From Mya arenaria (lineage: Eukaryota > Mollusca > Bivalvia > Myida > Myidae), in NCBI RefSeq assembly GCF_026914265.1, contig NC_069123.1, positions 51,902,949-51,966,948 on the forward strand: DNA of 64,000 nucleotides, given 5' to 3'. Under the pieces are notes generated by a model. It saw nothing but the letters and a program-made list of their open reading frames with translations, did not search any database and was not told where the DNA came from. Made by a program: the position numbers and the translations under genes. Of this stretch, positions 10,402 to 20,000 are shown one piece after another; the first letter of the stretch is position 1; each line of letters opens with the position of its first letter.

Positions 10402-11007
10402 TCAGGATGTTTCCTTGTCTGTATCATCCTCACTCACATAGTCAGGTAGGTCAGTATCATCAGCTTCAACAGATTTAGAGTCACCTTCCATTTCTGACAA
10501 TTCTTCATTCTCACTAGACTTTAAATCAATTTTCTTCGACCTCCTTAATTTAATATTAGGGTGATATCTCGCTTCACCAGTCCAGGTTTTAAAAATGGAA
10601 AGAGCTTTCCCATTTATTAAGTCTGGCACTTCAATACCAACTGTTTCAAATTCATGACATTCTGTTTCCAGTGTCAATTTAATTGCATTTTCTCTGGCAA
10701 CATGTGAATTTCCTTGTCTATTACCAATAGAGTTTACAATGCTTATCTGCTCTAGCTGGTCATCGAATCTGTTCAGATATCTACTTGTCAGCTCTGCTAG
10801 TTCATGTTTAGTGTATGTTGCCTTCTGTGCATCTAAATTCTCCTGAAACCAGACAAGTTTCTGCTGCAGCTGGTCCTGTTTCAAGGTTGTTTCCACCTTT
10901 GATTTCATTACCCGCTGCTCTCTGTTCAACTTTTTCCGAAGCACTGTTGCCCTTCTACTGTGTGGATGGACAGCTTTGCTCACCTGAGACTTTGGTGCTT
11001 TTGGCAT
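10402..11007 (-). CDS. TMA16: TMA16 homolog, intact in a single exon (201 aa)
   Basis: The protein starts MPKAPKS, with a basic N-terminus (HPHSRRATVLRKKLNREQR) and then the TMA16 core: 'KLVWFQENLDAQKATYTKHE', 'ELTSRYLNRFDDQLEQI', 'NSIGNRQGNSHVARENAIK' and 'FETVGIEVPDLING', ending in an acidic Ser/Asp/Glu tail. Length agrees with the family (about 200 residues). TMA16 associates with pre-60S particles in the nucleus and takes part in large-subunit maturation. The coding region is uninterrupted; a strong acceptor (CAATTTCAG) ends at about 11025, just upstream of the ATG, so a 5' UTR intron is possible. Vertebrate TMA16 is multi-exon, so this copy has lost introns or is a retrocopy, but it carries no disabling change. 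Divergent to the QRICH2-like gene, 5.5 kb away. Confidence 0.92.
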   Translation of the reverse strand: MPKAPKSQVSKAVHPHSRRATVLRKKLNREQRVMKSKVETTLKQDQLQQKLVWFQENLDAQKATYTKHELAELTSRYLNRFDDQLEQISIVNSIGNRQGNSHVARENAIKLTLETECHEFETVGIEVPDLINGKALSIFKTWTGEARYHPNIKLRRSKKIDLKSSENEELSEMEGDSKSVEADDTDLPDYVSEDDTDKETS

Positions 11008-11033
11008 TCTGCTTTTTATGTTAAACTGAAATT

Positions 11034-12159
11034 GAAAATGATATAAAGTCAGTTTAAATATTTCTTTACATTGACTTTAAAAAACAACAACACTTATTGA
11101 ACATATGAAGCAAAAATACGCATTTTTCACAAAAAATCAAAATATAAATAACAATATCCAGTTTCACTGTGGTAGTACTGGTAAAGCAGTATCTGGGTGG
11201 TATAAAAAAATTAATATATTTATTATTAAAGATTTTTCTTTCTTCTGGCATTAAAAAGTCCATGGAATTAAACCTGACTAAACTGAAAAGTCAGTGTATA
11301 AGCATCAAATTTGATAAAGATTGCATAAAGACCTATAAAATCTTGGAGGAAATTGTTCTACAATTTGTCTGAGACTCAGTGTAACATGTACATCAAGTAT
11401 GTCTGAGTGTAACTGTAGAAGTGTGACATTGTAATAAAATATCCTTCTTTGAAATAAGAAATTTTACATTAAGTATAACTTGCATTACTTTGGTACTTTG
11501 ATTAACTTCAAGCTAAATGGTTGTAGTTACAATTTTCAAAACTGCTTTATCTTAGAGCTGTTTTAATTCAAACACAGACATTCTTATATTAGGTAATGTG
11601 CAAAAAGGAATGTCACAACTATAACAAATTTTAAAAAAGCTATTGCAAGCGTGTCAGAGCCGTAGTCCCCACAGAACTAATACATTTATTGTAGCCCTGG
11701 TCTTGTGGCTCCAATATATTAAAGAGCTGCACCTAACATTGTCACATGTCCTTTCACAGCAGCAGTGGACACAACATTGGTGAATGTGTCACCAGCGTAA
11801 CAAATGATACTCAACAGTATATTAGTGCATAAATTGATATATTGGTAATTTCATAACTGCTTTTAAAGTACACTAAAGAGAATAGCTATATATATATAGA
11901 CACTAATTTCAGTACAGTGAGAAAAAAATCTCATTAAAACAGACTCATTCTTATTTATGTGTTTTTTTTATTATAATACTGTCATTAATGAATGTATTAA
12001 AATGGGATTAAAATCTCTCTGAACCTCTAAAAAAAAAGTGTTAAAACTTGAGCTTATAAGAAACCTTCAAAAGTGCCTGTATAGTATTTCAAGTCATTGT
12101 TCATCCACGAATTAATCTTTATTTATGAAATACAAAAATGTGCATCTGTACTAGTAAAT
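11034..12159. other. upstream of TMA16, nothing recognised
   Basis: AT-rich, with a short (TA)n at about 11890. No protein-like frame or repeat seen. Possibly a 5' UTR intron of TMA16 (see the donor at 13823-13818). Confidence 0.35.
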
Positions 12160-12470
12160 GGTTGCCGGACAATTCGGCACCAAACAAATTCGGCATACAT
12201 ACCTTTTCGGCACTAAGTTAATTCGGCACCGCCAATTCGGCACCATCCGACTGGATATCAAGATAATTTGGCACCGTTTTATTTCATTTTTTTGCTCATG
12301 TATTAAAGCATTAAGGGTTTAAATGTTTTTCAAGAAAAATAATTATTCCCCGAAATATTTATAGAGCAACTTTATTTTTTATTTTGTTTTCAATTCTTAT
12401 TTCTGTATTCATTTTCATTGATCATGATCGCATATCGGAAATCCGACTTTTGGCGATGTTATGTGACGTA

Positions 12471-14373: not shown

Positions 14374-14916
14374 TGTGCGCGATAATTTTTTTGTTGTTGT
14401 GATATTAGCATTAGGTTAAATAACACTAAATTTTATTTTCTATCGGAGATCGAAGAAACGGCCGGCGGAAAAAATAAAAATAAAGTTAGGAATTTGAATC
14501 TTTTTCTTTTTTGGGTTGTAATATTTAGGTACAGCGCTCCCGTAAAACGAAAAATAAAGAAAACTCTGGCCTTACTGAAAAAAAAACGATACTTGATACT
14601 CATATTGGATGATCAAATGTTTTTTGAAAGGTAGATTAAATCATTAATTGAAATAAACGAACCATATAACGAATGCAAGTGAGAACAGTTGAGTTAAAGA
14701 TAATTTGAATTTTGTGCCGAATTGACTATGCTTTATGGTGCCGAGTTGACGGGGTGCCGAATGTGTTGGTGCCAAATTGACTATGCCGAATTCGTTTGGT
14801 GCCGAATTGTCCAGTTACCCTGGTAAATATACACAGAGGCTTGAAAGTATGATTCAGATCCAAACAAACTGATTTTACCCAACTGAGGCCACTGGTAGAC
14901 TAAAATAATAGATGTG

Positions 14917-15325
14917 TGTCACAGGGTGAGAAAAGTGTGCAGCCAGACTGGGGCTCGAACTCAGGACCCCTCGCTATCAGGGTGAGTGCTTTACCGACTG
15001 AGCTACCGGACCGCTAACACACCTCCTCACCACATGTGTAGGTGACATTCTTCCCCTCAAACTGGAAATTCGTCCTCAAATTTGAGGAACACCAGTGCTA
15101 AGGAATGCACATAATTATCACTGAGGGCGCATTATGCTGCCAAACAGTGCTGCCACGGACCTACGTTGGGCGCCAAATGTCACAGGGTGAGAAAAGTGTG
15201 CAGCCAGACCGGGGCTCGAACCCGGGACCCCTCGCTATCATGGCGAGTGCTTTACGTTTACCGACTGAGCTACCGGACCGCTTACACACCTTCTCACCAC
15301 ATCTGTAGGTATCGGTACCGTGACA
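14917..15325 (-). mobile_element. complete miniature LTR retrotransposon (TRIM) with tRNA-like LTRs
   Basis: Read on the minus strand: a 5' LTR (15325-15178, TGTCAC...GTGACA), a 2-base spacer, and a primer-binding site TGGCGCCCAACGT (15175-15163) complementary to the 3' end of tRNA-Lys. Then come about 100 bases of non-coding interior, a polypurine tract GAGGGGAAGAA (15058-15048) and a 3' LTR (15047-14917). The LTRs are 148 and 131 bp and differ mainly by 11- and 6-base insertions in the 5' copy. Each LTR contains box A TAGCTCAGTCGG (15272-15261; 15005-14994) and a box B (GGTTCGAGCCC at 15222-15212; one mismatch at 14961-14951), with a tRNA-like anticodon arm between. No coding capacity, so it must be moved in trans. 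A weak target duplication (GATGT/TATGT) flanks it. Confidence 0.85.
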
Positions 15326-15508
15326 TATGTAATACAGGACTCTTTCAATCCCTAACGTCTTAACGGGTTTGTGAACAACTATTTAAAGTAAGCCAGGGTC
15401 AGCTGTTGGGATCTGCATCATACTTTCAAGTCTCTAATCAAATCAAATCAAATTTTATTTTCAGTTGGTATGACATAAACAGAGAAAACATTATCTATGA
15501 ATAGCTAA

Positions 15509-16203: not shown

Positions 16204-16547
16204 TACCATCAACGTGAACTTTAATAATCCTCCGCATGTGAAGAAGTACCGATATTTTTGCTTTTTGTACCTTTATCATATCAAGAACGAAACTTTATAG
16301 TCCACAATATTTTCTGACATCATTGCTTAGAACGAATATTATATTTGTACGGATTTAAGTGAGCTTCCTTTCAACCGCATAAACAACAGGAAGTTTCCGC
16401 AGAATATGTTATTCGACCATGGACTACAACTTAAAATGACTGTGTAGTAAACAGAATGAGTTTTCAATTATAAGTGACATAAAAAACACTGTATGATTTT
16501 AAATTATTTACGGAATATTATTTAAGGCTAAATTGAATTAGTCCAAC

Positions 16548-17027
16548 ATGCCGACGTCGGTGTCACTCGCCCAGATGGTGGATTTGTCCCTTGGGACACC
16601 TGAGATAGGGGTTGTCAATTTCAATGTGATGCACAGTCTCCTACATGCAATTATTAAGAAATTAAATATCTCTGATGCCAGGACTGACATCAATGAACAT
16701 GACCGAGATTTTTTGGCAACATCGAAGATTAGAGCTCGCTCAACACTAAGCGATGCTGACAGTGGTAGGGGTGAAGAATCTGAAGATGGCCTCAGTGAAA
16801 AGTCTGCTCCTGCTTTTAGACCAACTCCTTATCATAGATTAGAAATTAAAGTGGAAAAGCTTTTTCAACAAATGGAAGAACTTAACAAATTGCCCTCCAA
16901 TTCAGAACTTTTTGATCGTGCAACAAAAGCAAAAGTTGAGACCGGCTCGGACCGCCCAGTTGCTGACATGTGGCAGTACATGCAGCTCAAAAAGCGTGTA
17001 GATGCTAATGAAGAAGGAGTAGGGAAG
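16548..17027 (+). CDS. QRICH2: exon 1 of QRICH2-like gene: N-terminal family domain
   Basis: 160 codons from CCAAC-ATG to the donor AAG|GTAATG, phase 0. After the conserved start come an acidic Ser-rich linker ('TLSDADSGRGEESEDGLSEK') and a helical stretch ('HRLEIKVEKLFQQMEELNK'). The ATG is the first in frame; frames upstream contain stops. Confidence 0.85.
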
Positions 17028-20000
17028 GTAATGTTATTTTAAATTCACTCTTGTGACTAAATTTGTGATTAACTCTTTAAAGATAAATGTACATCTATCA
17101 ATTAATATAGGTATACATGATTGTACATTTTTACAATTCCCAAGGACAATGCAGTTCATGTTGTTGCTCCTTTTTTGTGTCAACTTAACTAAACCTGGGT
17201 AGTTCATGGTGTATTGCTCCAACCAACAACTGCAGAAACACTAGCACAGCACTGTACGACTAGACTGATCTAACAGTGCATATGGTTCTTCAATATATCC
17301 GTCCTTGTTTTTGTGTCTACTCTACATCTCTTCAGGCTACTGTATGGAAGAATTTCAAAATAACTCCCCATTAAGTAGTGATTAAACGATTATCGAGAAC
17401 AATCGTTAAATCGTCGCTGACAATGCTATGTCGGCGAGAATCGATAGTGGGTGTCCAAAATCGATGTCGCTAATGTTACTTCCGGTAACTACGTATTTTT
17501 CTTTGTTTTGTGGTAAAAGTCGAGTAAATGTCTTTTTTTTTCATTCTCGTCGAGTTCAATTCAACAAGGAAGGTCACTCTCTTACACAAATGCGGTGAAT
17601 GTAAACACTTTTGCTTAAAAACTTACAAACTCTCCAAAAATTACAAATTGTTTTTAATTGTTTATATATTTCATAAAACCTTCTTCAATAACCTGTCTCC
17701 ATGGTGTAGTGGGTCTGGTCTTACCTGAAAATACCGGGGATCCCGGATCGGTGCATTCTGTTTTGAAACCTTTTTTGGTATCGTTTGTAATTTACTAATT
17801 TACTCTTTTTTGTGAAAGTTTTATGAAATTAAATTATTATAATGAACTCTATATATATAACAGGTTATTGAATGTTAAGCTGGTTCACAAATATTTAATA
17901 TGCTTTTACATAGATGAAATGCTAAGATAACTTACATGATGCGGTGTGCATCATTTTGCAATTGATGTGCCATTATTAAGTATGTGATGTGTTCTGTGTT
18001 TTTTTGTTAAGTTATTAAAGGCAGAAAAAGGTTATGGAAATTTACTTTCTATTGCAAAATGCATTACCATAGCATTACACATACTGATTCCAGGTTTAAC
18101 CATTTAAATGATCCTGATAATACTATGTATAAAGAATGTATTCCTTACTGATATTATGAACTTTCGATAATTGTCCGATAGTAAATCGAAATGTTTGGTC
18201 CGATTCAATTCGATTATCAATGGCAAATGGAGTCCGATTTTCAAACACTACCATTAAGTATTCACTACGGTGTTTCGACATAATGAGTGTGTGTTTGGGA
18301 CAAGGTGTTAAAGCCTTACTTTGTTGTCAAAAGTCATTGACATTTGTCTGCTCCATAATTCTTCACCAGGATTTAAAAGTAATTTTGCTAAATGTTCACA
18401 ACTTTACAACTGAAGGCAAATTTAAAATAGCAGAAATGATTGTTGACATGCTTTCAGTTTTAGATCATATTTTGTATATAGCTCTCATTTCATATTGACA
18501 CATATTGCTCAGTCTGTTACAGTGTTCTGGAGCACCACACTGGGTGCACCTTTCCTCCTAGGTTTGCTTAAAAGTTTTGTATTCTTTACTTTTAAATACA
18601 TGTATAAATCTTTTCTAAATTGAGTCAAAATAATTGTTTGGATACATTTACGATATCTCGTTATAGACATTCATTTAAGTGCATGAGCACACATGTGACA
18701 TTAACATTTCATTACTCTTACCAAACTTCTATTTAAAACATTGTATAGATTCCTATAAGTTTACAGCACTTTGGATAAAATCATTCATAAAATATAAACT
18801 GCTACCCTAATGTGGTATTAGTATATTACACAACACCAATATCGCTATATGTGATAACAGATTTGTTGTATTTAATTAGCAGCAGATTTAAAATGTTGCA
18901 TGACCAGTGCATCTACATGTATTAAGATATATATATATATAGTATAATTCGATAATATTATACACCTTGATTATAGCGCAAAATGATTAAAAGTTCAGTC
19001 ATTGAAACATCCTATTAGATACCTGGATACATTCAGTCTGTTATGGCATTCTTCATGATACAAAATGAATTTCATATGAACCTTCACTTAGGATCAGTTG
19101 CTCACAGTTTATCTGGTGTACCAGGGCTTGACATATTCAGATTAAGAGTTATTTGAATTCTAAGTTTCACTTAAAATGCTAATTAGAGCTCGATGCGGTT
19201 ACTGGCAAGCTGATCTGTAAGAATGTATTTATGTAGGAGGGAAAAGACTTATAAATGCTATTTTTAATTAATTCTGAAGAAACCAATGTTTCTGCTTAAT
19301 GTGAAACTGATGAAGAATATGTTAGTTAGTTTTTAGAAGTTAACATAGTAGTATAATATTTCATTTATTTATTTTATTTATCGAAAGTATGAAGATTAGT
19401 TACATTTTTATCCATATTGGATGATCATTAATTGACAATTATTCGACATAAACAATTATTTTTCAAGCATGAAAAAGGAAGAAAATGATTGGGTCTCAAT
19501 TATACTTACACTTGAATATGATTTGATTTCACAAATCTCACTAGATTATTTCAGCTGGGGGTCCTAGGACCTCATTGTTGACAAAATGGGTTTTTCTTGT
19601 AATCATATATATAGGGTTCCAATATATATAGTATTTATACTACACATTCACTTAATTTGGGGGTCCAAGGGATGTACAGTAAGCTGCAAATGAGAGTCCC
19701 CTTCTATGACAATGAGTCAAGAACTCAAGTTTGGATTTTTTCAAAAATTGAATTTTAGTCGTCTCATTAATTTCTTGATTGTGTTGTTGAAATATTTTAT
19801 ATACTTTATGAAGCTTAGAGATATTACTCCAACTTTTACAGCTTTCAAAAACTACATAGGTTTGCGATAAAAAATCGAACATGAAATTGCATTCATGAAT
19901 GACAAACTAACAGTCCACAAGCAAAAATGTCATGTATTAAAAGAAAAATTACAATTAAGCAACACCTCCTAGTATAGTCTTTTTTCCTTTCAACTTTTTT

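Follow-up and report, generated by a model that had tools for sequence, protein, structure and literature searches.

A Helenus-type TRIM with tRNA-like units in its LTRs in the heterodont clam Mya arenaria

The DNA analysed here, a stretch of 64,000 nucleotides from Mya arenaria (Euheterodonta, Myida) referred to below as the window, contains a 409-bp element that we read, with a probability of about 0.88, as a Helenus-type non-autonomous TRIM, a short LTR retrotransposon that would be transcribed by Pol III from tRNA-like units within its LTRs and copied by the proteins of a Gypsy-type element. Helenus elements are TRIMs with tRNA-like LTRs, which in animals generate 4-bp target-site duplications (Kojima 2024, PMC10886601). 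The Mya arenaria copies add another family of the Helenus type, hosted by a heterodont clam and placed by its anatomy and the published description.

Results

Anatomy of the window copy

On the minus strand, from 15325 to 14917, an LTR, a tRNA-Lys-type primer site, an interior, a polypurine tract and a second LTR follow one another within 409 bp. The first-pass annotation had proposed this order and TG...CA borders, and both are borne out, each part lying at the following position.

15326..15329, minus strand: 5' target-site copy, CATA
14917..15325, minus strand: whole element, TRIM with tRNA-like LTRs (Helenus type), 409 bp
15178..15325, minus strand: 5' LTR (LTR1), 148 bp, TGTCAC...GTGACA
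15163..15175, minus strand: primer-binding site TGGCGCCCAACGT, 2 nt past the 5' LTR, presumed complement of the tRNA-Lys 3' end
15048..15177, minus strand: internal region, 130 bp, without coding capacity
15048..15058, minus strand: polypurine tract GAGGGGAAGAA, abutting the 3' LTR
14917..15047, minus strand: 3' LTR (LTR2), 131 bp, TGTCAC...GTGACA
14913..14916, minus strand: 3' target-site copy, CACA

The interior starts with TT-TGGCGCCCAACGTAGG and ends with GAGGGGAAGAA. The primer site, which presumably matches tRNA-Lys, would be expected by chance 0.26 times in the window when up to two mismatches are allowed. Alignment of LTR1 with LTR2 gave 123 identical sites, 8 mismatches (8/131) and 2 gap events. 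Relative to the 142-bp LTRs of the family, which were found in most of 25 loci, LTR1 carries 6 extra bp inside its tRNA-like unit and LTR2 lacks about 11 bp close to its 5' end. The target-site copies, CATA and CACA, agree at three of four bases, with one mismatch. The window element is an old, worn copy of its family.

At the 3' end of the interior (15048-15100, minus strand), a FEDEF...GE-like reading was seen by eye in one frame, and a similar stretch occurs in a second family (family B, described below). Some Gypsy pol genes presumably end with a similar stretch.

A dispersed family in the Mya arenaria genome

When the whole element was searched against the 1.216-Gb genome of its own host, at least 47 matches were obtained (the best 40 of 394 first-look candidates were scored), which, the window itself excepted, are 81-92% identical to the window copy and are dispersed over many contigs. 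The interior as a query gave at least 41 matches (the best 40 of 119 candidates were scored), and the LTR alone gave 405; the numbers 405 and 119 refer to candidates, not to verified copies. In total, 45 loci were examined, 30 from the search and 15 fetched, and 40 were measured after five second views of the same arrays (L006, L009, L012, L019 and L030) had been dropped.

The typical arrangement of LTR, interior and LTR is mostly 142/130/142 bp (25 loci). Only interiors of 61-199 bases were counted, 46 in all; of these, 37 open with TGGCGCC, 29 have TGGCGCCCAACG near the start and 39 close with a purine run of at least 6; the tract GCGGGGAAGTA is present in most of the 25 loci. The first-pass annotation had named copies consisting only of tRNA-like units with variable flanks as the outcome that would refute it, and the frequencies of the primer site (37/46) and of the purine run (39/46) show a different picture. 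The paired LTRs are identical in L002, L008, L015 and L018 and differ by up to 28 mismatches (L041). The identical pairs suggest, at the level of sequence, that the family has been recently active.

The tRNA-like unit and its promoter boxes

In the window copy, the tRNA family was the sole match at gathering scores among 4227 Rfam families. It was matched in both LTRs, 261-267 bp apart, at scores barely above the gathering score of 29 for RF00005.

15201..15279, minus strand: tRNA-like unit of the 5' LTR (Rfam RF00005, 29.4 bits)
15261..15272, minus strand: box A TAGCTCAGTCGG of the 5' LTR, exact
15212..15222, minus strand: box B GGTTCGAGCCC of the 5' LTR, intact
15192..15195, minus strand: TTTT immediately past the tRNA-like unit in the 5' LTR, a putative stop signal for Pol III
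14940..15012, minus strand: tRNA-like unit of the 3' LTR (Rfam RF00005, 29.8 bits)
14994..15005, minus strand: box A TAGCTCAGTCGG of the 3' LTR, exact
14951..14961, minus strand: worn box B AGTTCGAGCCC of the 3' LTR, one change
14931..14934, minus strand: TTTT immediately past the tRNA-like unit in the 3' LTR

The earlier proposal that the LTRs of a molluscan TRIM enclose a tRNA-like unit is right, both LTRs matching RF00005. Its claim that both LTRs carry both boxes holds for box A, which is exact in each, and needs correcting for box B, which is intact in LTR1 only (GGTTCGAGCCC versus AGTTCGAGCCC).

ARAGORN found no tRNA in the window copy but predicted a tRNA cloverleaf in 22 of 25 input loci (L005 and L012 among the 25 being two views of one locus), indicating that the window copy is worn. 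The predictions were called as tRNA-Ser(UGA) of about 74 nt; L080, which lies outside these 22, was read as tRNA-Ile. In the less worn L002 and L066, the Rfam tRNA model reached 47.2 bits. Because a genuine tRNA-Ser has a long variable arm, the calls of about 74 nt probably represent a tRNA-like promoter and not a tRNA gene. Disagreements in isotype have also been reported for the tRNA-like units of Helenus (Kojima 2024, PMC10886601).

Across the 40 loci, 77 of 86 LTRs have the box A pattern, 62 the box B pattern and 79 a TTTT past the unit. TTTT occurs in 1 of the 46 interiors. In the 30 interiors checked for both runs AAAA was absent as well, so that the missing T runs are not strand-specific, and no selection against them is claimed. 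For 83 mostly young LTRs, the mean non-majority fraction per column was 0.019 in box A, 0.031 in the tRNA-like unit, 0.039 in box B and 0.055 in U3; this variation would give at best weak support to constraint on the promoter. A long stem predicted around the tRNA-like unit of the LTR RNA folded better than shuffled sequences for L002 (z -3.1) and window LTR1 (z -2.7), and no better for window LTR2 (z -0.3).

These counts bear on the strongest alternative, in which the TRIM is the same, its tRNA-like unit is the fossil of a SINE insertion and the LTR drives transcription by Pol II, as it does in TRIMs of the ordinary kind. Such a fossil would fit the absence of the box B pattern from 24 of the 86 LTRs, window LTR2 among them, and the greater variation of box B than of the remaining unit. 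Conversely, the box A pattern and the TTTT are kept in most LTRs, the cloverleaf is still predicted in 22 of 25 loci, and box B is also present in the LTR of family B in the same genome. We therefore consider Pol II transcription past a SINE fossil unlikely, and prefer the reading in which the unit serves as a Pol III promoter.

Target-site duplications and a related empty site

Exact 4-bp duplications border the outer ends of the LTRs in 25 of the 40 loci measured, where 2000 shuffles of the flanks gave 0.86 on average and never more than 5; a 5-bp duplication was found in 0 of the 40. With ends set solely by BLAST, 17 of the first 25 distinct loci had an exact 4-bp duplication (shuffled mean 0.83, maximum 6). 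The flanks of L028 and L032 are alike, as are those of L040, L043 and L045, and both groups are probably segmental copies; counting these once, by hand, leaves exact 4-bp duplications in 24 of 37 loci. Among the 15 loci that lack an exact duplication are the window copy (3/4), truncated elements, arrays and elements joined to other sequence. Variable duplications with A-rich tails, of the LINE type, were not seen in the 40 loci. The genome search that the first-pass annotation had proposed returned a repeat family with mostly paired LTRs, and also a solo LTR (see below), with duplications of 4 bp where 5 bp had been anticipated.

When the window flanks were joined with one 4-bp copy, they aligned without a gap over 74 nt across the joint (60 identical, 81%) to a repeat copy in L036, and keeping both 4-bp copies produced a gap of exactly 4. 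The L036 stretch is a related empty site, which supports the insertion in the window. Since the L036 relative reads CACG, the 3' copy CACA is probably nearer the original and the 5' copy CATA would have changed. The resemblance of the joined site to the L036 stretch also suggests that the TRIM was inserted inside another repeat.

A chance tandem pair of tRNA-derived SINEs without any LTR element would account for a tRNA-like unit that is present twice, 261-267 bp apart, and is nevertheless refuted by the exact 4-bp duplications at outer LTR ends and by the related empty site; the LTR-interior-LTR order kept across copies, with the primer site and the tract in most of them, also stands against it, and we give it almost no weight.

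Tandem arrays and a solo LTR

At six of the 40 loci (L003, L005, L008, L013, L017 and L038), LTR-INT-LTR-INT-LTR arrays (INT, interior) with a period of about 272 bp were observed, and the arrays L008 and L013 are themselves flanked by 4-bp duplications. A tandem satellite with a fortuitous tRNA-like unit would predict such arrays, but is refuted by the 34 loci that are not arrays, the single copies with duplications being dispersed over many contigs, and by the duplications around L008 and L013, so that it too is extremely improbable.

Among the 30 LTR loci that were cut out, which represent the best hits only, L047 is a solo LTR with a duplication matching at 3 of 4 bases. In L005 (about 1005-1914), an inverted LTR and a partial interior lie beside a normal array, as might follow self-integration.

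A proposed replication cycle and the search for a Gypsy partner

The tRNA primer site, the purine tract and the 4-bp staggers together indicate LTR-type replication of the Helenus-type element. Pol III would initiate in the 5' LTR, slightly upstream of its box A, pass the TTTT of that LTR and end at the TTTT of the 3' LTR, in which case R would approximately coincide with the tRNA-like unit; an R of this extent requires read-through of the TTTT in the 5' LTR. Minus-strand DNA would be primed by tRNA-Lys at the primer site and plus-strand DNA by the purine tract. A putative autonomous Gypsy-type element would supply the reverse transcriptase, capsid and integrase that make and insert the copies.

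In L003, L015, C17 (L049 and L057), L076/L083 and L027, the TRIM has a stretch of Gypsy-type integrase, RNase H or gag no more than about 1.5 kb away; the Gypsy assignment was made by Pfam for L083, L027 and L049 only and by sequence similarity for the other loci. In C17, a TRIM piece flanked on either side by TTTG sits inside a Gypsy gene. The region L048-L058 of C17 (about 1.10-2.00 Mb) consists of repeated units, several of them about 31 kb apart, and each unit has an LTR, about 1180 bp, and then, within Gypsy coding sequence for RNase H/integrase, an LTR-INT piece that lacks the 3' LTR; the TTTG flanks enclose this LTR-INT piece in L049. L015, inverted and about 12 kb from L003, has a related integrase end no more than about 1.5 kb away.

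In L027, a Gypsy-type gag (Pfam PNMA) follows the TRIM, and this gag has 20 matches in the genome, including L027 itself and one between L003 and L015. The tRNA-Lys primer site was not found before the gag in L091 or L092 (330 bases) or in L085 (61 bases), and the joint between TRIM and gag in L027 looks like a short-homology fusion. The gag is therefore only a candidate partner.

LTR retrotransposons of Mya arenaria have been studied because of its transmissible cancer. One of them, the Gypsy element Steamer, is not favoured as the partner because its duplications, given as 5 bp in the accessible text of PMC10663159, differ from the 4 bp of the TRIM family.

A second family and a hybrid element

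L066 (1482-1892; C9:3321510-3321920) contains a family-A LTR (the family of the window element), a primer site TGGCGCCCAACAAGGGAC, a family-B interior, a tract and a family-B LTR (TGTAAC...GTTACA). TTAC, read by eye, stands directly at both outer sides, as a single 4-bp duplication. The family-B LTR gave 776 candidates in the genome and at least 44 matches at 96-100% identity (the best 40 were scored), the last of which is a 30-base fragment. L089 is a complete family-B element (about 154-107-154 bp) flanked by CATT on either side, and its primer site reads TGGCGCCCAACGTGGGG. The family-B LTR has a box B, its box A is a loose match only, and the Rfam tRNA model was not reached at E 0.01 in L066 or L089 for family B, which is thus Helenus-like but not proven Helenus.

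That the hybrid lies inside one 4-bp duplication suggests that the RNAs of both families were packaged together. By the simplest route, plus-strand strong-stop DNA of A, comprising the LTR and a copy of the primer site, may have been transferred onto the minus strand of B through the common tRNA-Lys primer site, a step that needs both RNAs in one particle. Alternatively, the hybrid may have arisen by recombination after insertion. We tentatively propose, at somewhat less than even odds, that Mya arenaria harbours at least two Helenus-like families whose LTRs were exchanged during reverse transcription. If such exchange were general, hybrids would reveal the partners of gene-less elements and explain the diversification of Helenus LTRs, and L066 would offer a route to finding elements that share particles.

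Other junctions also fall near the primer site. In L076 and L077, other DNA takes the place of the left LTR, at or within 1 base of the LTR/primer-site boundary, and in L034 and L027, a primer-site-like stretch after the 3' LTR is followed by other DNA. Past the 3' LTR of L034, this stretch consists of TTT and an 18-nt copy of the primer site, as if a copy of the primer tRNA had been left untrimmed before insertion. In L003 (2187-2264), TTTTGG and the reverse complement of a tRNA-Asp-like sequence lie directly past the 3' LTR of the array, with the CCA end abutting the LTR, and the tRNA-Asp-like stretch adjoins an inverted Gypsy integrase end.

Discussion

The first-pass annotation knew of no described mollusc family of this kind, a statement superseded by the 51 Helenus families reported from bivalves of five orders, all Pteriomorphia, with tRNA-Lys among their primers (PMC10886601). 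Published Helenus elements are 311-1263 bp long and have primer sites resembling those of Gypsy elements; solo LTRs are reported, and tandem arrays are described for a zebrafish family (PMC10886601). The Mya element shares with them the short, coding-free TRIM structure with two LTRs (409 bp; 148/130/131), and its family shares boxes A and B of a tRNA-derived unit within the LTRs, a primer site (presumably for tRNA-Lys), a polypurine tract, and 4-bp duplications (exact in 25 of 40 loci). The host differs, being a heterodont, whereas Table 1 and the text of PMC10886601 list only Pteriomorphia among molluscs and no heterodont. A later meeting report, in its accessible part, merely mentions Helenus, and literature searches, which covered the accessible part of a bivalve transposon survey, returned no report of Helenus in Heterodonta.

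The reported host range of Helenus is thereby widened from Pteriomorphia to a heterodont clam. If Helenus spans Heterodonta and Pteriomorphia, the origin proposed for it in the ancestor of Pteriomorphia would have to be older, repeated or horizontal. Pol III transcription of Helenus is, according to Kojima 2024 (PMC10886601), without experimental validation, and the recent activity suggested for the Mya family would make it testable in a living animal.

Cassandra, a plant TRIM described in the accessible text of PMC10886601 as carrying a 5S rRNA promoter in its LTRs, likewise combines a Pol III-type small-RNA promoter with TRIM LTRs, and differs in the promoter, since the Mya LTRs matched only tRNA in Rfam. 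Biv-TRIM, a bivalve TRIM present in heterodonts as well, resembles the Mya family in forming tandem arrays and in its tract GGGGAGA; the accessible text on it (Satovic 2019, PMC6934838) gives repeats of 202-218 bp, an interior of 77-80 bp with TGATCCCAAAGGAC in all but one species, and no unambiguous primer site. In contrast, the Mya copy has LTRs of 131-148 bp, an interior of 130 bp without TGATCCCAAAGGAC and a clear primer site. SINE2 elements resemble the Mya element in their tRNA-like Pol III unit. They are not known to possess paired LTRs, a primer site or a target duplication fixed at 4 bp.

In the window, the element lies between the Tma16 gene (10402-11076, minus strand; Pfam) and a plus-strand exon at 16542-17042; the relatives of this exon that carry names are C16orf96-like and glutamine-rich protein 2. 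Viral-contig pattern scans gave no hits. Inverted 32-bp arms (91%) surround the element at 14835-14866 and 15404-15435. Repeats of a TTGGTGCCGAATT-type motif adjoin the element at 14711-14816, and a related stretch lies 2.5 kb off, at 12167-12246.
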